NCBI GenBank assembly: GCA_938041955.1
Contig: CALISD010000060.1
Location: forward strand, 1-64,000
Source of the DNA: an uncultured Granulosicoccaceae bacterium
Lineage (GTDB): Bacteria > Pseudomonadota > Gammaproteobacteria > Granulosicoccales > Granulosicoccaceae
DNA length: 64,000 nt
Direction of reading: 5' to 3'
In this document: piece by piece, positions 7,827 to 55,065 of the stretch
How positions within the stretch are numbered: position 1 is the first letter of the stretch
Layout of the letters: every line of letters starts with the position of its first letter
The notes under the pieces: model-generated
The model's database searches: none
The model's input: the letters and a program-made list of their open reading frames with translations, nothing else
What the model was told of the DNA's origin: nothing
Position numbers and translations under genes: made by a program

Positions 7827-8789
7827 GTGCTCTGTAGAACTCGTTCTGTATTTGGAAATTCTTTGAATCCTGTTCGTGGTATCGCCCTAAAAATCTTATC
7901 GGTTATTGTTTTTGTTACCATGTTCGGTTTCATCAAGGCTACTGCACAGCAGATTCCGCCGGGTGAGGCGGTGTTTTTCCGTTCTCTGTTCGCGATTCCT
8001 GTGCTTATATTATGGTTGATCCGTAGCGGTGATTTTCCCGGCAACCTGAAAGCTAAAGATCCTATGGGGCATGTGTGGCGCGGTTTGATGGGTACGCTCG
8101 CTATGGCGTCGGGGTTTATGGCCATTGGCTTATTACCACTCCCTGAGGTTGTAGCGATCGGCTATGCCGCCCCCTTGTTAGTGACTATGCTGGCTGCCAT
8201 GTTTCTGGGGGAAAAGATCAGGCTGGTACGATTTTCTGCATTATTACTCGGCCTATTCGGTGTTATGTTGATTTTGTTGCCGAGGCTAACTTTTTTTGAT
8301 GCAGAAGTAGCCAATCGTCTGCAGACCATCGGTGCATTGGTGGCGCTTATGGGTGCGATATTTTCAGCTCTTGCGCAGGTGTTTGCGAGGAAGCTTGTTG
8401 CTACTGAAACAACAGGTTCAATAGTTTTCTACTTCTCACTGATGTCTACTACGCTGGCGTTACTTACTTTACCGTTCGGTTGGAAAGTGCCGACTGGCAA
8501 CGAAGCCCTGTTGCTGGTAGCGGCGGGACTGCTCGGTGGTGTTGGTCAGATTCTGTTAACTGAAAGCTACCGTCATGCAGAGGTTGCTGTAATTGCTCCG
8601 TTTGAGTATTGCTCTATCATTCTTGCCCTTCTGATTGGTTACTTCATATTTGACGAGTTTCCCACCGGTATTATGATGGCAGGTGTCGCGTTGATTATTG
8701 TGGCGGGAATTATCATTATTGAGCGTGAACGCAGATTGGGAATAAATCGTACAGGTAAAGCACGCGGTGCTGTGCCTAATCAGGGTTGA
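7827..8789 (+). CDS. EamA/DMT-family transporter
   Basis: A 320-residue inner-membrane protein of the drug/metabolite transporter superfamily with two EamA repeats. About ten hydrophobic helices are visible; the repeats run about residues 20-150 (ends LGLFGVMLILLPR) and 165-300 (ends AGVALIIVAGIIII). The early motif PPGEAVFFRSLFAIPVL is characteristic of the YdcZ/RarD-like relatives that export metabolites or take up solutes. The substrate cannot be told from sequence. The annotated start is a GTG; an internal start near residue 19-24 would also preserve all helices. It is monocistronic, with a strong hairpin 215 bp downstream. Confidence 0.82.
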   Translation: MLCRTRSVFGNSLNPVRGIALKILSVIVFVTMFGFIKATAQQIPPGEAVFFRSLFAIPVLILWLIRSGDFPGNLKAKDPMGHVWRGLMGTLAMASGFMAIGLLPLPEVVAIGYAAPLLVTMLAAMFLGEKIRLVRFSALLLGLFGVMLILLPRLTFFDAEVANRLQTIGALVALMGAIFSALAQVFARKLVATETTGSIVFYFSLMSTTLALLTLPFGWKVPTGNEALLLVAAGLLGGVGQILLTESYRHAEVAVIAPFEYCSIILALLIGYFIFDEFPTGIMMAGVALIIVAGIIIIERERRLGINRTGKARGAVPNQG

Positions 8790-16443: not shown

Positions 16444-17610
16444 ATGAACATTAATAGATTCAAAAAAAATCAGCGTTCGGCGTCTGGTAAGTACAAAGGC
16501 CGTGAATTGGAAATCACCATAACCTCTCTCACGAATGCGGGTGATGGTATTGGACGCCTTGATGATCAAGTGATTTTTGTACCGTACTCCATGCCCGGTG
16601 ATGAGGTTCGTATAAAGGTGATCCAGGACAAAGGGTCTTTTTTGATTGCGGAGTTAATTGAGATTGTGAGTCCGAGCGTGGATCGCACTGTACCGTCATG
16701 TGAGTATTTTGGTGAGTGTGGTGGTTGTGACTGGTTGCATATTCCTTATCAATTGCAACTTGAAGTAAAGACCGAGCAATTGTCTGAGACATTGCGCCGA
16801 ATTGGTGGTTTAGCCGAAATTGAAGTAGAGGAGATTGTTGCTTCACCGAAGCCTGCGAATTATAGAAACCGTATACAGGGGCATATACGCGATAGCGCTT
16901 TTCATTTTATGCGTAGAGGCAGCAACAAGTTGATAGCAGTAGAAAAGTGTGATATCGCTGATAGTTTGATTAATAAACGATTGGCGCTCGGCTTTGAGGA
17001 TATGGCTGCAGGAAAGGTCGAAATAAGTGTGAACGACAATCAAGTATCGGTAGTGCCGCTGAATGCAAAGCAAGCTACTGGAATGGGTTTTCGTCAAGTG
17101 AATACAGAAATGGGTATTATTCTTGGTGAACTTGTACTTGATTCGGCACGGGGAGGGGAGTTTACCTCGATAAATGATTTGTATTGTGGCCGTGGTGACT
17201 GGACCAATGCAATCGCCCGGTGCTTACCGGAGACGTCGGTGCTTGGTATCGATGCGATGCCTGAAAACATTGCTCTGGCGAAATCGCGAGCAGCCCGGGA
17301 GGGATTAACGAACGTTAGGTATTTGCAGGCCCGCGTCGAAGACGCATTGGATAAAGTAAAGGTTAAGAACAGTTTCTGTATTGTTGATCCTCCGCGTGCC
17401 GGCCTTGATGCTGCTGTGTGCAAAGCGTTGTGCAAGCGCCCTGCGAGGGAATTAATTTACGTGTCTTGTCATGCCGCTACGCTCGCTCGCGATCTTAAGT
17501 TATTAACGACCGGCGGGTATGAAGTGGCTTCAGTACAGCCACTGGATATGTTTCCGCAAACTTCGCATCTGGAATGCGTGGTTAAGTTGCGGGCGTCTAA
17601 AAGTAAGTAA
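16444..17610 (+). CDS. TRAM-domain Fe-S class I SAM-dependent RNA methyltransferase
   Basis: A 388-residue RNA (uracil-5-)-methyltransferase of the RumA/RlmD-TrmA family, which methylates uridine in rRNA or tRNA in the cytosol. An N-terminal TRAM domain (about residues 20-80; GDGIGRLDDQVIFVPYSMPGDEV) is followed by an Fe-S cluster motif CEYFGECGGC (about 87-96) with a fourth Cys in VEKC. The methyltransferase core shows INDLYCGRGDWT (SAM loop), VLGIDAMPENI, and FCIVDPPRAGLD (motif IV). The catalytic Cys is in YVSCHAATLARD near residue 340. The chain is slightly shorter than E. coli RlmD (433). The exact target base cannot be told. A tandem-repeat array begins 70 bp after its stop. Confidence 0.87.
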   Translation: MNINRFKKNQRSASGKYKGRELEITITSLTNAGDGIGRLDDQVIFVPYSMPGDEVRIKVIQDKGSFLIAELIEIVSPSVDRTVPSCEYFGECGGCDWLHIPYQLQLEVKTEQLSETLRRIGGLAEIEVEEIVASPKPANYRNRIQGHIRDSAFHFMRRGSNKLIAVEKCDIADSLINKRLALGFEDMAAGKVEISVNDNQVSVVPLNAKQATGMGFRQVNTEMGIILGELVLDSARGGEFTSINDLYCGRGDWTNAIARCLPETSVLGIDAMPENIALAKSRAAREGLTNVRYLQARVEDALDKVKVKNSFCIVDPPRAGLDAAVCKALCKRPARELIYVSCHAATLARDLKLLTTGGYEVASVQPLDMFPQTSHLECVVKLRASKSK

Positions 17611-17679: not shown

Positions 17680-18510
17680 GCATTGGTATTGCTTTTCAAT
17701 CTTCCATTGCCGTACGCAGCATTGCAGAGAGCAGAAGTCTGCCACAGATAGAAACGCAGGTAGCGGCTGCGTGAGCAAGGTGCCGCTATTGGGCTTGTTG
17801 ATCTGTTGGACGAATAGTATCCGGCCTTGCTCACGCTGCGGGTTGCCTTGTTGGTCTACTCCTGATGATGCGTATTGCTTTTCAATCTTCCGTGGCGTGA
17901 CGAGCATAGGGAGGAGTTGAACTCTGCCAGAGATATAACTTAGATAGCCCGCTTCGTGAGCAAGGAGGCGCTACTGTGACGTTGATCTGTTGGACGAATA
18001 GTTTCTGGCCTTGCTCACGCAGCGGGTTGCCTTGATCGTTTACTCCTGATGATGCGTATTGCTTTTCGTTCTTCCATGGTGGCACGAGCATGGGGATGAG
18101 TGGAGCTTTGCCATAGATGGAACGCGGGCGTTGCTTGAGCAAGGAACCGCTATTGATCTGTTGATCTGTTGGATAAGTAGTATCTGGCCTTGCTCACGCT
18201 GCGGGTTACCTTGATGGTCTATTCCTGATGATGCGTATTGCTTTTCAATCTTCCGTGGCATGACGAGCATCGGGAGGAGTGGAGCTTTGCCACAGATGGA
18301 ACGCGGGCGTTGCGTGAGCAAGGAACCGCTATTGATCTGTTGGACGATTAGTGTCTGGCCTTGCTCACGCAGCAGGTTACGTTGCTTGTCTACTCCTGAT
18401 GATAGGTATTGCTTTTCAATCTTCCGTGGCGGTGCGAGCATGGGGAGGAGCAGAGCTCTTCCACAGATAGAACTCAGGTAGTCCGCTGCGTAACAAGGAA
18501 CAGCGATAAC
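17680..18510. repeat. Tandem-repeat array 1 (about 4.5 units, 171-184 bp)
   Basis: The phrase CGGGTTGCC/CAGGTTACG recurs at 17839, 18023, 18202 and 18373, giving unit lengths of 184, 179 and 171 bp. Each unit has the same order of parts: a TATTGCTTTTCAATCTTCCGTGG block, a GACGAGCAT-GGGAGGAG block, GCCACAGAT-GAAC, a stem arm CCCGCTGCGTGAGCAAGG (variants), a GATCTGTTGGACGA spacer, the reverse-complementary arm CCTTGCTCACGCAGCGGG, then CTCCTGATGATG. The same unit builds array 2 at 52730. Minus-strand open frames across it change phase between units, so I treat the array as non-coding. It lies between the 3' end of the methyltransferase gene and the haem operon. Confidence 0.85.
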
Positions 18511-18984: not shown

Positions 18985-19659
18985 ATGAATGTTAATAAAT
19001 CACAGCTACGAAATTTCGGCCTTGTATTGGCGCTACCGGTCGCTGCTATCGGTGCAGTATCAGTTGCGACAGATAACATGTCATCTTTGGTAGCGCACGG
19101 TCCGGTGCAACAAGGGCACGTAGATGTGGATTGTGTTGGTTGTCATTCCATAGGGGTAGGTACTGTCCGGCAGCAGATACAGGCTAACTTGGCTTACGCT
19201 CTTGGCAAGAGATCGACCAGCGTTAACTTCGGTTTTCAGCCGGTCACCTCAATTCAATGTTTGAGTTGTCATGATAGACCGAATGAGCGTCATCCGATCT
19301 ACCGCTTCAACGAACCCCGGTTTGCGGACGTTCGTTCATCGTTAGAGGTGAATTCCTGTGTCGGGTGCCATTCTGAACATGTCGATTCACGTGTGTCGGT
19401 CAGTGAGACCCTTTGCAGTCACTGTCATGATGATCTGGTGTTGAAGAATGATCCATTAGATGTCCAGCATGATCAGTTGGTGGTGGACGATGCCTGGAGT
19501 TCGTGTTTAGGCTGCCATGATTTTCACGGCAATCATCCGCATGAGTCTCAAACATTGTTGAGCGATGCATTCCCTGTTGAAGCAATCAGGGATTATTTCG
19601 GGAATGGGTCTGACCCGTATGGTAGTCAAAAAATATATGAAGCGACATTCGATGACTAA
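18985..19659 (+). CDS. Exported pentahaem c-type cytochrome
   Basis: A 224-residue multihaem cytochrome c. Five CxxCH haem-attachment motifs are visible: CVGCH (50-54), CLSCH (92-96), CVGCH (125-129), CSHCH (144-148) and CLGCH (174-178), plus extra histidines that could be distal ligands. The N-terminus (about 30 residues with a hydrophobic core) is a signal peptide or an anchor, placing the protein in the periplasm. Motif spacing resembles NapC/NirT- and cytochrome-c3-type electron carriers but does not match one named enzyme. It is the first gene of a three-gene operon: the next gene overlaps its end and encodes a monohaem protein, and the third encodes a b-type membrane protein. It likely shuttles electrons between that membrane protein and a periplasmic partner. 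Confidence 0.86.
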   Translation: MNVNKSQLRNFGLVLALPVAAIGAVSVATDNMSSLVAHGPVQQGHVDVDCVGCHSIGVGTVRQQIQANLAYALGKRSTSVNFGFQPVTSIQCLSCHDRPNERHPIYRFNEPRFADVRSSLEVNSCVGCHSEHVDSRVSVSETLCSHCHDDLVLKNDPLDVQHDQLVVDDAWSSCLGCHDFHGNHPHESQTLLSDAFPVEAIRDYFGNGSDPYGSQKIYEATFDD

Positions 19660-20506
19660 TACGGGTTTGGTGTTGAGTAGTTTTTTTTGCTGCCTGGGTA
19701 TCTACCTGTTTGTGGCGGCACCTCCGGAACTGCCAGATGTGAAAGCTGCCGTAATCCAGGATCGGGCCATAGATGTATCGAACATGTTTAATGCTATGAA
19801 CGCAATAAATGACGCTGCAAGACGTATCTACACGAGTCGTATTGTTGGTGGTGGAAAAGAAGCTGGACTGGAATTTGGTGAGGATTGGGCTGAGCCTTCA
19901 GTTGACAAGGGGCCATTGCCGGCACTGTTTACACGACTGGTAGCTGGTCGAATGGAATCGAAACCGCCACCATTGGGCCTCTATCTGGGTTCCGACAAGC
20001 CTATCAATCAATCTAATTTATTTAGTGGACAACAGGCTCTGGGGTTCGATCGCTTAAAAGAGACGCAATTGTCTGTATTTCTAAAGTCTGATGATGCCGG
20101 TTATGTTGCCATGTATCCGGATATTGCTTCAGCTAAGCCTTGTGTCAGTTGTCATAATGAACACGCTGATAGTCCAAAAACCGATTGGGAAATGAATGAT
20201 GTCATGGGTGCTACCACCTGGACATACCCGAGAGACTTGTTGAGTTCAGCGGAATACCTTGAGATAACTGATGCTTTTTATACATCTGTACAGGAGGCGT
20301 ATCAAACGTATCTTGATAAAGTCGAGAAATTTCAAAGTAGTGTGGTAATTTCGAATGATTGGCCGGAAAAAAACAAAAGAGCATTGCCGGACGCCGCTAC
20401 TTTTATGGCTGCAGTGCAGGTGGAGTCAGCCAGCACGGTATTAAATGATCTCGTCTTGAATCCTTCAGCGAAATTTGAAAATGTTGATTTGCCCGGGTTC
20501 CAATGA
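19637..20506 (+). CDS. Tll0287-like (DUF3365) monohaem c protein
   Basis: A 289-residue membrane-anchored periplasmic haem protein. I start at ATG 19637; an ATG at 19652 is equally possible, and longer in-frame starts would overlap the cytochrome gene by nearly 100 bp. One N-terminal transmembrane helix (VLSSFFCCLGIYLFVAA) precedes a Tll0287-like domain that contains the single haem motif CVSCH (about 169-173) within the family signature AKPCVSCHNEHADSPKTDW, followed by MGATTWTYP. Tll0287-like domains are known as c-haem PAS-like modules, often sensory. There is no output domain here, so it may work as a haem subunit. The next gene starts in an ATGA overlap with its stop. Confidence 0.82.
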   Translation: MKRHSMTNTGLVLSSFFCCLGIYLFVAAPPELPDVKAAVIQDRAIDVSNMFNAMNAINDAARRIYTSRIVGGGKEAGLEFGEDWAEPSVDKGPLPALFTRLVAGRMESKPPPLGLYLGSDKPINQSNLFSGQQALGFDRLKETQLSVFLKSDDAGYVAMYPDIASAKPCVSCHNEHADSPKTDWEMNDVMGATTWTYPRDLLSSAEYLEITDAFYTSVQEAYQTYLDKVEKFQSSVVISNDWPEKNKRALPDAATFMAAVQVESASTVLNDLVLNPSAKFENVDLPGFQ

Positions 20507-20994
20507 CAGAGCTGCTCGAGCTGGTTCGTGCCCGCCCGTACATCGTATTGGGTGTTCTCGGTGTTATTCTCATTCTTGTTTTATTGGATTCCGGGGTTAT
20601 CGTTAACACTGTGCCTCCAGATAGGTTATTTGCGTGGCAAGTCGTGACGGGGCTCTTGTTGACAATGCTTCTTCTGTATCAGTGGGTACTCTTGCTGTTG
20701 CGGGTTTTCGGTGGAAATGTACGGTCACATTACAAAGCGCATCGTTGGGTAGGTGTCGTGTGTACTGTATTCTTTGCACTACACGCACTCAGCTTTGGTT
20801 ATGGCTGGACAAATACACTCGCGATTGTCTTCTGCCTGAGCGCTGTCACTGGTCTATTGAATCGAGAGGTAATCACTTACCGCAAGCCGTGGAAATATAA
20901 ACTATGGTATTGGTCACACGTTACGCTTTCGGTTAATTTGGTGCCACTGATTGCAGTGCACGTTTGGGTTGCACTTGTCTATGAAGGTTTTTAG
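20503..20994 (+). CDS. Four-helix b-type cytochrome-like membrane protein
   Basis: A 163-residue integral membrane protein with about four helices (about residues 12-30, 43-67, 80-112 and 134-158). Histidines at 76, 80, 94, 139 and 153 sit in or next to helices and could ligate one or two b haems, as in the ferric-reductase-like/cytochrome b561 folds. This resemblance is inferred from size and His placement, not from a firm motif. The gene is third in the haem operon, with a 4-bp ATGA overlap to the Tll0287-like gene, so translation is probably coupled. It may pass electrons between the quinone pool and the two periplasmic cytochromes. Confidence 0.7.
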   Translation: MTELLELVRARPYIVLGVLGVILILVLLDSGVIVNTVPPDRLFAWQVVTGLLLTMLLLYQWVLLLLRVFGGNVRSHYKAHRWVGVVCTVFFALHALSFGYGWTNTLAIVFCLSAVTGLLNREVITYRKPWKYKLWYWSHVTLSVNLVPLIAVHVWVALVYEGF

Positions 20995-21031: not shown

Positions 21032-21061
21032 GCTTCGGGCTTCGGGCTTCGGGCTTCGGGC
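21032..21061. repeat. Short tandem repeat (GCTTCGG, four copies)
   Basis: The 7-mer GCTTCGG is repeated head-to-tail four times directly after the haem operon, and a GCTTTGG variant follows. Such a tract is prone to slippage. It lies in the 220-bp gap before the LRR-kinase gene. Further on, a GGTG/CACC hairpin followed by TGTTTTTA near 21090-21115 may end transcription. Confidence 0.6.
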
Positions 21062-21214
21062 TTTGGCTCGAAGCTCTGATTGACGGGGTGCCTCCGGGGT
21101 CACCTGTTTTTATAGGGTTGAGTGAAAGACGTAAAGATCAAATCATTACGTATATGCAGTTTGCTCTGTGTTCTATTATAGTGGCCACCCATTGTATGAT
21201 CGGACCTCGCTATC

Positions 21215-22558
21215 TTGCACACTATCGCTGACCTTAACTCGGGAGCTCTTGCCGGAGTTACTCGCTTAAGAATTTCTGAAAGCCTTACGGAATTTCCCAC
21301 TGAAATATTTGGTCTTGCTGATACTTTGGAGACGCTTGACCTTTCGGGGAATAAGCTCAGTCGGCTTCCCATGGATTTTGGGCGTCTGCACAAGCTGAAA
21401 ATCCTGTTCATGTCGGATAACGACTTTGAGGTGCTACCAGGTGTTCTGGCCGGGTGTCCAGCGCTGAGCATGATCGGTTTTAAGGCGAATAGAATTCATA
21501 CCGTGCCAGAGAACGCGTTGCCAGTAGATACGCGGTGGTTGATTCTGACTGATAATAAAATCGATGCGTTACCCGATTCCATGGGCTCATTGCACAAGCT
21601 GCAAAAACTGATGCTTGCAGGGAACAGGCTCACCACATTGCCAGAGCCTATGCAAAAGTGCAGTGCGCTAGAGTTGGTGCGCATTTCCGCGAACAACTTC
21701 AGCGCCATGCCTGAGTTCCTGTTGCAACTGCCAAAACTCGCATGGGTCGCCTTTTCAGGTAACCCGTTTTGTCAAGTGTTCGATAAACCAACGCTACGAA
21801 ACGTTGGCTTTGACGATCTGGCGCTCGGGCAAGAATTGGGGGAAGGGGCTTCAGGCGTTATAAGTAAAGCGACATGGCTTACCACACCGGATGGTTTGGA
21901 AAATACCGATGGACCGGTCGCTGTAAAAACATTTAAAGGTGAGGTAACCAGTGATGGTTACCCGCAAGACGAATTGAGTGCCTGCGTTGCCGCCGGTAAG
22001 CACGTAAACCTGGTAGAGCTCATAGCGCAGATTGAGGATGCACATGGATTGGGTTTGGTAATGGCCTTAATCGATGACAGTTTCAGTAATCTAGGTGAAC
22101 CACCAACCTTACAAAGCTGTACCAGAGATCACTTCCGTGATGAGTTTTCGTTGACGACTGCCGCGGTGATAAAAATTGTTCGCTGTGTGGCAGATACGAT
22201 GATTCATTTACATCTAAAAGGCATCTCACATGGTGATCTGTATGCGCATAATATTTTGATCAATGAAGAGGCCGATGTGCTGTTTGGCGATTTTGGCGCT
22301 GCGTCGAACTACTTGTCCGTAAGTAGCGAACAAGCAGAAGCCTTGCAAGGTGTTGAGGTACGCGCATTTGGGTGTTTGCTTGAAGATTTGCTGGCGATTG
22401 GGTGCGATAGCGACGATTTCCGGGGTGCTGTCGATCGCTTGGATTTTCTTAAGCATCGCTGCATGGATCCGAAAGGCTGTTCTCGCCCCACGTTCGCTGA
22501 AATTAGATCTGACTTAATTTCAATTGGTGAAGAGCATAGTCGGCCAGGCCATAGATAA
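21215..22558 (+). CDS. Leucine-rich-repeat protein kinase fusion
   Basis: A 447-residue fusion of a leucine-rich-repeat domain (about residues 10-190, six or so repeats of the LxxLxLSxNxLxxLP type, e.g. LETLDLSGNKLSRLP) and a Ser/Thr-like protein kinase domain (about 205-440). Kinase motifs are the glycine loop LGEGASGVI, the VAIK lysine in VAVKTF, the catalytic loop SHGDLYAHNILI (HGD with YAHN in place of HRDLKxxN), and DFG in FGDFGAAS. The APE and later motifs are weak, so the kinase is divergent. It starts at TTG 21215: an in-frame stop lies 18 bp upstream, leaving no other start, and the residue pattern matches family members that begin MHTL. It is cytosolic and probably acts in signalling; substrate unknown. 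Confidence 0.82.
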   Translation: MHTIADLNSGALAGVTRLRISESLTEFPTEIFGLADTLETLDLSGNKLSRLPMDFGRLHKLKILFMSDNDFEVLPGVLAGCPALSMIGFKANRIHTVPENALPVDTRWLILTDNKIDALPDSMGSLHKLQKLMLAGNRLTTLPEPMQKCSALELVRISANNFSAMPEFLLQLPKLAWVAFSGNPFCQVFDKPTLRNVGFDDLALGQELGEGASGVISKATWLTTPDGLENTDGPVAVKTFKGEVTSDGYPQDELSACVAAGKHVNLVELIAQIEDAHGLGLVMALIDDSFSNLGEPPTLQSCTRDHFRDEFSLTTAAVIKIVRCVADTMIHLHLKGISHGDLYAHNILINEEADVLFGDFGAASNYLSVSSEQAEALQGVEVRAFGCLLEDLLAIGCDSDDFRGAVDRLDFLKHRCMDPKGCSRPTFAEIRSDLISIGEEHSRPGHR

Positions 22559-51335: not shown

Positions 51336-52307
51336 CTAAGCCTGCTTGTTTTTGGTGCGATAGGAAAATGCTTTTGCAAATCGCCACAAGAGATAGTCGC
51401 CACAAGTGATTGCGTCTTCGCTTGATTGCAAACCGGGTATTGTATTCGCATCAATGATGGTTTCTGGGTTGGGGTCAAACGCCAGTACGAGTGACAAGCG
51501 TTCACGCCCTGAGGTATTGACCACTCTGTGCGGGGTAGACTTATATTCTCCGGCAGTCCAGCGCGCTAGCAAGTCACCAACGTTAACCAATAGTGTGCCT
51601 TCAATTGATGGTGCATGTATCCAATCACCATTGATGTCCTGAACTTGCAGGCCACCGGTGTTGTCCTGGCAAAGTACAGTTAGCACGCCAAAGTCAGTAT
51701 GCGGTCCTACACCGAATTGTTTCACACCAGATTCTTCCGGTTGTGCAGGGTAATAGACAAAGGAAGCTCTGCTTAAGGGCATGTCATTTGTTTGTAGAAA
51801 AAAGTTTGGATGCAGATTTAACGCGATAGCAAAACCTTGCATAAGGGTTGCAGCCAATTGATGTGCTTTGTGGAAATAATCCATCGCTGCACTTTCCATG
51901 GTGGGGACAAAGGCAGGCCATTGGTTTGGGCCTCGCAACGGATGGTCTTCTATGCTGTTGCCATTGCTGTCTTGCAGGCCCCAGATAAAACTCTCTTTCA
52001 GATCAACTTGTGCGTTATCCCCCATCTTTGCAGCACCGGGTTGCAACCAGCCACGGTGCTGTGCGGAAACACTGACTGACGCTTTGTTGGAATCTTCAGA
52101 GTGAAAAAATGCGAACGCCGCTTCACGGGCATGGTCGATTACCCTCTGAGGTATGCCGTGTCCCTTGATGTAGATAAAGCCCAGTCCGGTGCTTGCAGCG
52201 TGCAGCGCTGTGGCCACGCCTGTCGGGTCTGAATTGTCGCGCAGAGCTGTTATATCGATCACCGGAATGGTGCCGGGCTGCATTGATTTGGCGGTGGCGT
52301 AGGCCAT
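51336..52307 (-). CDS. Isopenicillin-N-synthase-family 2OG-Fe(II) oxygenase
   Basis: A 323-residue cytosolic non-haem iron oxygenase. The N-terminal DIOX_N-like segment begins IPVIDITALRDNSDP and shows GLGFIYIKGHGIPQ. The iron ligands are His and Asp in GPHTDFGVLTVLC (about 200-212) and His in TPHRVVN (about 258). The 2-oxoglutarate anchor Arg-x-Ser is in GRERLSLVLAFDP. It hydroxylates, cyclises or demethylates an unknown small molecule. It leads the minus-strand operon with the CMD-like and M29/NicX-like genes. Weak Shine-Dalgarno. Confidence 0.87.
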   Translation of the reverse strand: MAYATAKSMQPGTIPVIDITALRDNSDPTGVATALHAASTGLGFIYIKGHGIPQRVIDHAREAAFAFFHSEDSNKASVSVSAQHRGWLQPGAAKMGDNAQVDLKESFIWGLQDSNGNSIEDHPLRGPNQWPAFVPTMESAAMDYFHKAHQLAATLMQGFAIALNLHPNFFLQTNDMPLSRASFVYYPAQPEESGVKQFGVGPHTDFGVLTVLCQDNTGGLQVQDINGDWIHAPSIEGTLLVNVGDLLARWTAGEYKSTPHRVVNTSGRERLSLVLAFDPNPETIIDANTIPGLQSSEDAITCGDYLLWRFAKAFSYRTKNKQA

Positions 52308-52729: not shown

Positions 52730-54058
52730 GCGCTCTGTGGTGATCTGCAGGACGAGCGCTATTTGGCCTTGCTCCTGCAGCGGGTTACGTTGAATGTCTA
52801 TTACTGATGAGCCTGTTTTGCTATCAAGCTTCTGTAGCAGCACGAGGCATAGTAGGTAGCGGTTGCCGATATGCATCGATCACAGGTAGCCCGCAGCGTG
52901 AGCAAGGAACAGCGTTTACGCTGTTGATCTGGGCGCGAGCGCTGTCTGACCTTGCTCACGCGGCGGGTTACGTTGAATTTCTATTGCTGATGATGGTGTT
53001 TTGGTTTCAGGCTTCCTTGGTTGCACGAGGCATAGTAGGAAGTGGTTGCAGATGTGCATCGCTCTAAGTAGGTCGCTGCGTAGGTAAGGAAGTGCGTTTA
53101 CGTTGTTGATCTGGGGACGAGCGCTGTCTGACCTTGCTCACGCGGCGGGTTACGTTGAATTTCTATTGCTGATGAGCCTGTTTTGCTATTAAGCTTCTGT
53201 AGCAGCACGAGGCATAGTAGGAAGCGGTTGCCGATGTGCATCGATCACAGGTAGCCCGCAGCGTGAGCAAGGAACAGCGTTTACGCTGTTGATCTGGGGG
53301 ACGAGCGCTATTTGGCCTTGCTCACGCAGCGGGTTACGTTGAGCTTCTATTTCTGATGATTGTGTTTTTGGTTTCAGGCTTCCTTGGTTGCACGAGGCAT
53401 AATAGGAAGTGGTTGCCGATGTGCATCGCTCTCAGGTAGCCCGCTGCGTGAGTGAGGAAGTGCGTTTACGTTGTTGATCTGGGGGCGAGCGCTGTCTGGC
53501 CTTGCTCACGCAGCGGGTTACGTTGAGCTTCTATTGCTGATGATTGTGATTTGCTATCAAGCTTCTGTGGTTGCACGAGGCATAGTAGGAAGCGGTTGCC
53601 GATGTGCATCGATCTCAGGTAGCCCGCTGCGTGAGCAAGGAACAGCGTTTACGCTGTTGATTTGGGGGACGAGCGCTGTCTGACCTTGATCACGCAGCGG
53701 GTTACGTTGAGCTTCCATTGCTGATGAGCGTGTTTTGCTTTCAAGCTACTGTGGCTGCACGAGGCATAGTAGGAAGTGGTTGCCGATGTGCATCGCTCTA
53801 AGTAGGTCGCTGCGTAGGTAAGGAAGTGCGTTTACGTTGTTGATCTGGGGGACGAGCGCTGTCTGGCCTTGCTCACGCGGTGGGTTACGTTGAGCTTCTA
53901 TTGTTGATGATTGTGATTTGCTATCAAGCTTCTGTGGCAGCACGGGCATAGTAAGAAGTGGTTGCCGATGTGCATCGTTCTCAGGTAGCCCGCTGCGTGA
54001 GTGAGGAACAGCGCTTGCGCTGTTGGTCTGCAGGATGAGCGCAGCGAATGCCACGCTC
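52730..54058. repeat. Tandem-repeat array 2 (seven units of about 183-184 bp)
   Basis: GGGTTACGTTGA recurs at about 52781, 52964, 53146, 53330, 53514, 53698 and 53881, giving spacings of 183, 182, 184, 184, 184 and 183 bp. Each unit carries the stem arm CCCGCTGCGTGAGCAAGG and its reverse complement CCTTGCTCACGCAGCGGG (variants), and between them a second hairpin AACAGCG-TTTA-CGCTGTT followed by GATCTGGGGGACGAGCGCTG. The same unit (without the inner hairpin) forms array 1. The array stops 12 bp before the gene at 54070, at a truncated unit. Minus-strand frames change phase between units because some units are 184 bp, not a multiple of three, so it is unlikely to encode protein. Confidence 0.88.
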
Positions 54059-54069
54059 AAACAAAAAAC

Positions 54070-55065
54070 CTAGGCAAAACTCCGGGTATAACCAAACAAA
54101 GCAGCCGACCCGCCGGTATGCAAAAACACCAAACGTTCACCTTTCTTGAAGTGCCCTTTTCTCACTAAGTCAATTAAGCCTGCAGCACCTTTCCCAGAGT
54201 AAACCGGATCAAGTAAAATACTTTCCAGCTGAGCGAACATGCTTATGGCTTCAAGAGTTGATTCAGCAGGCATGCCATAACCCTCACCTACATAGTCTGT
54301 GTTTGCTACTACGTCTTCGCGTTTAACTACACCCGGGCAGCCAAGTTTTTCTGCAGTGTTGACGGCAAGGTTGAAGACACTCGCTTCCTGAGCTTCTTTC
54401 GCTGCGCGCACACCAATACCAAGCAACGGGATGTTGGCGTTCATTGCCTGCAAACCAACCACTAAGCCAGCTTGTGTGCCGGCACTGCCTGTGGCATGGA
54501 CGATATGATCGATAGTCAGGGCGCGATCATTGGCTTGTGATAACAGCTCAAAAGCACAATTTACATAACCAAGCGCACCTGTCGGGTTCGATCCGCCCCC
54601 TGGTATGACATAAACCTTTTTCCCGTCGGCCCGCATCTGATCGGCAACTTTCTCCATCTCTGCGTGCATATCAGCCCCACCAGGGTGTCTCTCTGTTGTG
54701 GCCCCGTGTAAATGGTCGAGTAGCACGTTACCGTTATCCTGATAGTTCCCGTCATCATAACCAGTGCGATTTTCAAGCAGCAGGTGGCAGCCCATTCCCA
54801 GCTTGGCGGCAAAAGCTGAAGTCTGCCGACAGTGATTTGATTGTGTTGCGCCCTGGGTGATCACGTAGTCGGCGTTTTCTGCCTGCGCTTCGGCCATAAG
54901 GAATTCGAGTTTCCTGGTTTTGTTGCCGCCAGTCGAAAGTCCGGTACAGTCATCGCGCTTGATCCAGATTTCAGGTCCACCCAGCTCGTCGCTTAAGCGG
55001 TCCAATCTTTCCAGAGGAGTGGGAAGGTGGGCCAAAAATACTCGTGGAAATCGTGATAAATGCAC
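54070..55065 (-). CDS. PLP-dependent D-cysteine desulfhydrase/L-cysteate lyase-family enzyme
   Basis: A 331-residue cytosolic PLP-dependent fold-type II enzyme of the ACC deaminase/D-cysteine desulfhydrase family. The PLP lysine is in [14 protein letters not shown] (about 48-55), preceded by WIKRDDCTG; the QSNHCRQT segment (about 75-82) and a glycine-rich phosphate loop [17 protein letters not shown] are family marks. The end [15 protein letters not shown] is characteristic. Relatives include D-cysteine desulfhydrase (DcyD) and L-cysteate sulfo-lyase (CuyA); which reaction occurs here cannot be told. Start at GTG 55065. It abuts the tandem-repeat array at its 3' end and is divergent from the lipid cluster. 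Confidence 0.82.

Follow-up and report, generated by a model that had tools for sequence, protein, structure and literature searches.

What are the two tandem arrays of a structured repeat that lie beside genes in this stretch of DNA from an uncultured Granulosicoccaceae bacterium, and which part of the repeat is maintained? The window (the whole stretch that was analysed, 64 000 nucleotides) belongs to a draft genome of 6.18 Mb in 222 contigs, referred to here as G000. The labels G002–G020 denote relatives of G000 within the family, with G017 belonging to another genus, and G413 is a planctomycete MAG titled Schlesneria paludicola.

Arrays and repeat unit

The preliminary description reported two tandem arrays with a common structured unit. 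Tandem Repeats Finder (TRF), a family HMM and direct reading confirm both arrays, with one unit of ~184 bp. Array 1 (17683–18510, + strand) consists of ~4.3 units with partial terminal units, and array 2 (52730–54058, + strand) consists of ~7 units of 181–185 bp. TRF assigns array 1 a period of 179 bp (17686–18473, 4.4 copies) and array 2 a period of 183 bp (52741–54042, 7.1 copies); the limits from the family HMM are 17683–18480 and 52738–54041, respectively. A 368-bp dimer period outscores the 183-bp period in array 2, so that its units alternate pairwise in a two-unit higher-order arrangement; the unit lengths measured from the arm starts are 184, 181, 185, 183, 185 and 181 bp. Each unit runs from the arm CCCGCNGCGTGAGCAAGG through 38–44 bp to the reverse complement of the arm and then into a linker of ~105 bp, of which 53518–53622 (+ strand) is an example that aligns as homologous across the G000 arrays. 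The spacing of ~50–60 bp originally given for the arms corresponds to an inner distance of 38–44 bp in nearly all of the close pairs listed, or ~60 bp from start to start.

Array 1 contains four palindromes on the + strand. Three were located with the arm search and the degenerate core, at 17763–17842 (+ arm 17763–17780, − arm 17825–17842), 17948–18026 (+ arm 17948–17965, − arm 18009–18026) and 18306–18376 (+ arm 18306–18323, − arm 18359–18376); the remaining one, at 18129–18205, has a degenerate + arm and a − arm at 18188–18205 (arm search and family HMM). Array 2 opens with a − arm (52767–52784, − strand) that has no + partner, as seen by direct reading, the arm search and the family HMM. 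It continues on the + strand with palindromes detected by the degenerate core at 52890–52967 (+ arm 52890–52907, − arm 52950–52967), 53255–53333 (+ arm 53255–53272, − arm 53316–53333), 53440–53517 (+ arm 53440–53457, − arm 53500–53517) and 53623–53701 (+ arm 53623–53640, − arm 53684–53701). Two further palindromes with degenerate + arms, at 53074–53149 (− arm 53132–53149) and 53808–53884 (− arm 53867–53884), were recognized by direct reading and the degenerate core, as was the last + arm (53989–54006, + strand), which has no partner. By the family HMM, both arrays start and stop in the middle of a unit, and array 2 starts and stops within a palindrome.

The repeat had been described as absent from the rest of the window, and all 19 arms found with at most three mismatches (0.04 expected) do lie inside the two arrays. 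The degenerate core gives 21 matches in the window, two of which, at 8096 and 29354, are outside the arrays and have three mismatches each; the mean expected by chance is 1.08. A short tandem repeat of GCTTCGG at 21032–21063 (4.6 copies) bears no relation to the arrays. A coding repeat was considered and rejected in view of the array 2 unit lengths listed above and because no selected ORF of at least 100 aa runs the full length of any array; mechanical ORFs inside some arrays were disregarded.

Copies within the genome of origin

A dispersed family, rather than one local duplication, had been proposed for the arrays, with BLASTN of one unit as a check. The search finds the unit throughout G000, with 133 matches (40 of the 84 first-look candidates were scored and 34 stretches around matches were taken for analysis). 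The family HMM, built on the window units in four iterations and counting one strand per place, gives 160 hits in 41 array segments that cover 24 524 bp, the two arrays of the window included. The figure of 41 is a lower bound, since listed arms also occur on contigs outside the fetched stretches, and several segments lie at contig ends, some of which are perhaps halves of one array in this 222-contig draft. With at most two mismatches, the arm is present in 164 forward and 168 reverse copies, with none for the control.

Identity among the 85 full units is 88% within an array versus 71% between arrays. Of the 25 arrays that hold at least two full units, 18 are monophyletic, and three of the other seven begin at a contig start. 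The linkers are also related from locus to locus: with one linker apiece from 31 arrays, a score of more than 3 s.d. above shuffles is reached by 437 of 465 pairs, in agreement with a dispersed family. On the family HMM, half of the array starts (19 of 38) map to model positions 1–12, and the array ends show no single sharp position; we draw no claim from the boundaries because first arms are often degenerate.

Conservation of the arm

To compare arrays, we aligned 31 units (33 array representatives minus two of irregular length). Between-array identity is 89% and 97% for the two arm cores, 73% for the loop and 63% for the linker, and the central arm base reaches merely 38% and 41%. Over 23 positions, 91% of cells show pairing between the arms. 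This pairing shows no covariation (0.081 versus a shuffle mean of 0.092, a value reached by 468 of 500 shuffles), double changes are seen in only two pairs compared with a shuffle mean of 2.6, 16 of the 31 units have a broken central pair and the RNAalifold covariation term on the alignment is −0.09. The proposed check for compensatory changes in the arms therefore returns none beyond shuffles. The lack of covariation together with the broken central pair indicates that selection or copying maintains the arm sequence and not the stem. The idea of a conserved long stem as the defining feature of the repeat is not supported on these grounds, nor by G013, in which an inverted partner is found for just two of 53 forward arms; for the same reasons we rejected the view that a long-stem RNA or a cruciform is what is conserved.

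The constrained part is a word of ~22 nt that comprises a tag, GGTAG or GGTAA, and CCCGCNGCGTGAGCAAGG, and it does not fold on its own. Among 235 G000 arms the tag is GGTAG in 59, GGTAA in 61 and GGCAA in 41; in G013 it is GGAAA in 47 of 57 arms and in G413 it is ACCAA in 22 of 37. Judged on one sequence each, single arms are equalled in folding by 115 of 200 shuffles for G000, 176 of 200 for G013 and 132 of 200 for G413, and the G012 arm falls in between (22 of 200, also one sequence). One whole unit folds with z = −2.2 on the + strand and much the same on the − strand (−2.2). At gathering score, Rfam gives no match in the window or in 16 sources that include the relatives.

Placement beside genes

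The arrays had been placed at the 3′ ends of genes, which is borne out for both. Array 1 begins 72 bp past the 3′ end of a gene for a TRAM plus tRNA (uracil-5-)-methyltransferase-like protein (16444–17610, + strand), and a gene for a PLP-dependent PALP-family enzyme (54070–55065, − strand) has its 3′ end 28 bp from the point where array 2 stops. Across array 2, a gene for a 2OG-Fe(II) oxygenase (51336–52307, − strand) has its 5′ end 430 bp from the array. In G000, a gene 3′ end lies within 60 bp of 21 array edges, and a 5′ end within this distance of one edge. Counting gaps that have a mechanical ORF of at least 100 aa on either side, 28 gaps with arrays comprise 11 convergent, 15 co-directional and two divergent gene pairs, and 98 background gaps without an array comprise 11, 63 and 24, respectively. 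Arrays are enriched in convergent gaps (11/28 versus 11/98, p = 0.0014); their depletion from divergent gaps is not significant in these 28 and 98 gaps (p = 0.06). At the 20 loci read in relatives (mechanical ORFs of at least 80 aa), the gene end that flanks the repeat is a 3′ end in 24 of 27 cases.

Of 115 flanking proteins collected, 110 were compared with Pfam and PHROGs, and the 25 commonest families in each were inspected. The proteins resemble products of ordinary metabolic and transport genes, with ABC transporters in the lead, and the 25 commonest Pfam families (of 235 matched) include no transposase family that would indicate a recurrent mobile-element gene beside the arrays. The gene behind the array 2 neighbour differs in G011 and G013, where another gene is present and no clean empty site is seen. 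At locus L125 of G005, a match to the kinase gene comes ~100 bp after the methyltransferase homologue, which puts array 1 in a variable stretch. The corresponding interval of the window between array 1 and an LRR-kinase gene (21215–22558) holds cytochrome c-like, Tll0287-like and weakly DUF4405/ferric-reductase-like genes (18985–20994).

Occurrence in relatives

BLASTN with the whole unit among 57 genomes matches the genome of origin only (1/57). The arm at one mismatch or fewer is present in 11 of 48 family genomes, with all controls at zero; the order-wide search covered the same 48 genomes. The counts are 286 in G000, 147 in G013, 18 in G010, 14 in G012, 11 in G017, two in G020 and one each in G002, G004, G005, G006 and G008. 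A class-wide sample has the core at background level, in six of 369 genomes, the five other than G000 with one copy each (reversed control in two genomes). Virus contigs contain no paired arms; the degenerate core occurs in 69 stretches with one match each, which we judge to be near chance on a roughly guessed collection size. TRF applied to contig starts of the four relatives G003, G010, G011 and G013 (572 kb in total, periods of at least 60 bp) gives six entries for tandem repeats of whatever sequence.

The 20 loci that were read in relatives (12 in G013, three each in G012 and G010, two in G017) carry the same core in other layouts. G013 has GGAAA-CCCGCAGCGTNAGCAAGG as direct repeats with a period of 37–156 bp; the two inverted partners noted above are those that precede the next arm across its 12 loci, and its spacers are specific to each locus, with 0 of 66 spacer pairs alike versus 437 of 465 in G000. 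The word opens imperfect palindromes of ~60 bp in G010 and G017, reiterated with flanking DNA. The units of G012 are 182–208 bp long and have a MITE-like look, with ends of ~30 bp (TTAGGAAGCCCGC...) in inverted orientation. At one G010 locus (L145:209–572), a 313-bp array unit combines an arm pair with a variant of the GTAGGGTGGAT...ATCCACC REP, so that two repeat families are interleaved. At the end of its contig, one array of G013 (L138:931–1127) passes into a long simple repeat rich in CAA.

Copies in a planctomycete

A scan of a species collection, stated at 84 980 species and possibly lacking records of the genome of origin, for the arm pair (TGCGTGAGCAAGG, 25–50 bp, CCTTGCTCACG) gave one stretch, in the planctomycete MAG G413. 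The pattern is narrow, and one match is thus uninformative about the frequency of the word in planctomycetes. Within G413, CCCGMNGCGTNAGCRAGG occurs at one mismatch or fewer in 327 + 335 copies (662 in total; reversed control 0 + 2), and some of the copies listed are identical to a G000 arm across 18 bases. The arm has the form ACACCAA-CCCG(A/C)AGCGTGAGCGAGGA. Twenty places, chosen among the matches listed with pairs preferred, comprise 13 inverted pairs 13–53 bp apart, one at 75 bp, two at ~190 bp and four single arms, and none of the 20 is a tandem array. For 26 places in twenty longer stretches, ten are between co-directional genes, eight are in mechanical ORFs, four are divergent, two are convergent and two are at edges; a 3′ bias of placement is absent from this sample. 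One stretch (L287:750–2164) has three inverted core pairs within a single mechanical ORF of 801 aa, the pattern that three insertions of the repeat into coding sequence would leave. The core common to G000 and G413 may reflect either descent by transfer or convergence on a favoured sequence; the tags differ.

Search for a transposase

G000 has one match to PF01797, a broken Y1 transposase gene (L065:477–833, contig C111) that appears, on reading its pieces, to be IS200-like. G013, which is 98% complete and carries 147 arm copies, has no PF01797 match. An intact RAYT was thus not found with PF01797 in either of the two richest genomes. Y1 matches are present at 83 places in 30 of the 48 family genomes, including the arm-bearing G010, G012 and G017, and we read 20 of these places, among them all six in G010, G012 and G017. 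The arm (three mismatches or fewer) is present at two of the 20, both in G012. At one (L232:773–922), an inverted pair with the related core CCCACAAGCGTAAGCGTGGG lies 49 bp past the 3′ end of a 321-aa Y1 gene, and this arm folds on itself (12 of 200 shuffles as good, one sequence); at the other (L233), one arm copy is 1.4 kb from the Y1 match. The L232 pair could be a bridge from true REPs to the G000-type arm. As far as these genes indicate, a RAYT route seems possible for G012 and unsupported for G000 and G013.

A classical GTAG REP, GTAGGGTGGATAAGCTTGCGCATCCACC, lies ~170–190 bp from the G010 Y1 gene and, among six Y1 loci read in G011, from the Y1 gene at one. The sites of this REP are L228:2043–2535 in G010, in alternating orientation, and L240:1337–1364 in G011. 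Three further copies are found at L093 of G003, a genome with no Y1 match, and this REP does not occur in the window.

Relation to known repeats

The preliminary description stated that no named family fits. This goes too far, because the arrangement resembles that of BIMEs and, in G013, that of STAR elements, as judged from the accessible text of PMC3733652 and PMC3532100, although the repeat does not qualify formally as a REP. We describe the arrays as a REP/BIME-like and STAR-like extragenic repeat, the core of which we could not name on the basis of the family descriptions in the accessible text of PMC3733652. A literature search with longer core strings returned no paper on the subject by title.

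A GTAG REP element is a self-palindrome of 20–40 bp (stem of 5–13 bp), whereas the arms of G000, G013 and G413 fold no better than shuffles; most GTAG REPs carry the GTAG tag, but only a minority of G000 arms do (59/235). According to the accessible part of PMC2817692, RAYT genes always lie between two inverted REPs; among the 20 of 83 Y1 places read here, a related core accompanies one G012 Y1 gene. The accessible text of PMC3733652 also describes CGTC repeats, apparently without a dedicated transposase. The G000 arrays and the loci of relatives are like GTAG REPs in adjoining 3′ ends, with convergent or co-directional genes, a likeness that G413 does not share. Alternating orientation, regular linkers and tandem reiteration make the G000 arrays, although not those of G013, similar to BIMEs, from which the G000 arrays differ by a conserved linker of ~105 bp.

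STAR elements of Staphylococcus, in the accessible text of PMC3532100, have a short GC-rich core of 14 bp in intergenic direct repeats with locus-specific spacers; they are spread unevenly among related species, and their function, origin and propagation mechanism are called unknown there. The present word is likewise distributed unevenly among relatives, and G013 resembles STAR elements in having its core in direct repeats, each locus with its own spacer (0/66 pairs alike), whereas in G000 the spacers are common to loci (437/465) and the arms alternate in orientation. The STAR consensus T(G/A/T)TGTTG(G/T)GGCCC(C/A), as printed in that text and compared by eye, is unrelated to the present core. 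The TIR families of TIRYT genes have longer inverted ends of non-GTAG type and are moderately abundant as single, paired or clustered copies (accessible text of PMC3733652). The present arms share these properties, but no tyrosine transposase is flanked by the arm in G000 or G013, and the related core stands beside one G012 gene only. The arrays match no known structured RNA, with no Rfam family match and no compensatory changes in the stem.

ERIC and other MITEs are intergenic and have inverted arms. The G000 repeat shares both properties, but tandem reiteration is the rule here and the ends of the element are not sharply defined.

Origin of the arrays

We consider that the arrays are probably clusters of a REP/BIME-like non-autonomous extragenic repeat, the recognized part of which would be the ~22-nt arm, grown in tandem together with adjacent DNA. 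In G000, the arm is usually paired in inverted orientation across a loop of 41–44 bp, and such pairs form head-to-tail series together with their ~105-bp linker. Most of the arrays are internally homogenized, and the repeat occupies dozens of loci, mostly beside gene 3′ ends. The relatives have the same core with other tags and other periods, and in G013 the spacers differ by locus and inverted partners are nearly absent. We infer that a trans-acting protein or the replication machinery would recognize the arm word and not a long stem, and that copies may be seeded in tolerated 3′-flanking DNA. Clusters would then expand and contract by slippage or unequal recombination, taking along the DNA that adjoins the word, and insertions upstream of genes would be selected against. 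Effects on neighbouring genes, through transcription end, mRNA end or supercoiling, would be secondary, if there are any.

An alternative is that the arm is cut and spread by a tyrosine transposase of the RAYT/TIRYT kind, the arrays being true BIME clusters whose enzyme has been lost or missed in assembly. The accessible texts of PMC3733652 and PMC2817692 describe REP/BIME clusters in just this way, as tandemly reiterated inverted pairs that are joined by linkers and lie at 3′ ends; Y1 genes are widespread in the family, including arm-bearing genomes, and the self-folding CCCACAAGCGTAAGCGTGGG pair sits beside a G012 Y1 gene. We nevertheless regard this origin as unlikely: arm-rich G013 has no Y1 match and G000 has only the broken IS200-like gene, the arm is at just two of the 20 Y1 places read (one of them 1.4 kb off), the REP GTAGGGTGGATAAGCTTGCGCATCCACC, a different one, is found near the G010 Y1 gene and at a Y1 locus of G011, and shuffled sequences fold as well as the single arms of G000, G013 and G413. 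We rate as very unlikely that the repeats are MITE debris of an unseen DDE transposon, with the arms as its terminal inverted repeats. The G012 units do look like MITEs, but the arms of G013 are nearly all unpartnered and transposase families are missing from the 25 commonest Pfam families of the 110 flanking proteins.

Two further alternatives assign the arrays a function. They might be structured RNA at mRNA 3′ ends, with hairpins transcribed as terminators, RNase III sites or stabilizers and the stem under selection, in keeping with the 3′-end placement, the 91% pairing of the arms and the fold of the + strand of one unit. The arm sequence and not its pairing is conserved, however, with no covariation and a free central base; nearly all G013 arms are without an inverted partner, the − strand folds about equally well and Rfam gives no match at gathering score, which makes this reading highly improbable. 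By analogy with gyrase and IHF on BIMEs, the arm might instead be the site of a nucleoid or topology protein in selected binding arrays. Constraint at the level of sequence, with free positions within the word, and the multiplication of sites in clusters would suit such a role. There is little likelihood of it, in our opinion: no protein is known to bind the arm, IHF-like sites are not enriched (ten in 85 units versus 8.0 in shuffles) and the word at one mismatch or fewer is absent from 37 of 48 family genomes, which argues against a general housekeeping role.

A more far-reaching reading is that one word common to two phyla directs tandem amplification of adjoining DNA through a non-RAYT enzyme. 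Unrelated flanks would have become private minisatellites in G013, an amplified unit would have become a dispersed satellite in G000 and the word would have moved between planctomycetes and the family by horizontal transfer. This scenario is speculative and we hold it to be rather doubtful.

Implications

In the accessible texts of PMC3532100 and PMC3733652, the spread of REP-like and STAR-like words and their growth into clusters appear as an open problem. Here, one core word can be traced through five related genomes, among which it takes four forms: long units of BIME type in G000, direct repeats of a single arm in G013, units that resemble MITEs in G012, and short palindromes repeated with their flanks in G010 and G017. 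A planctomycete has it as lone inverted pairs. The contrast between the layouts distinguishes what has to be conserved, the arm sequence, from what is dispensable, namely the stem, the linker and the period. The parts that merit pursuit are the missing enzyme and the cross-phylum core, and a single genus offers both word-bearing and word-free genomes in which to hunt for the enzyme.
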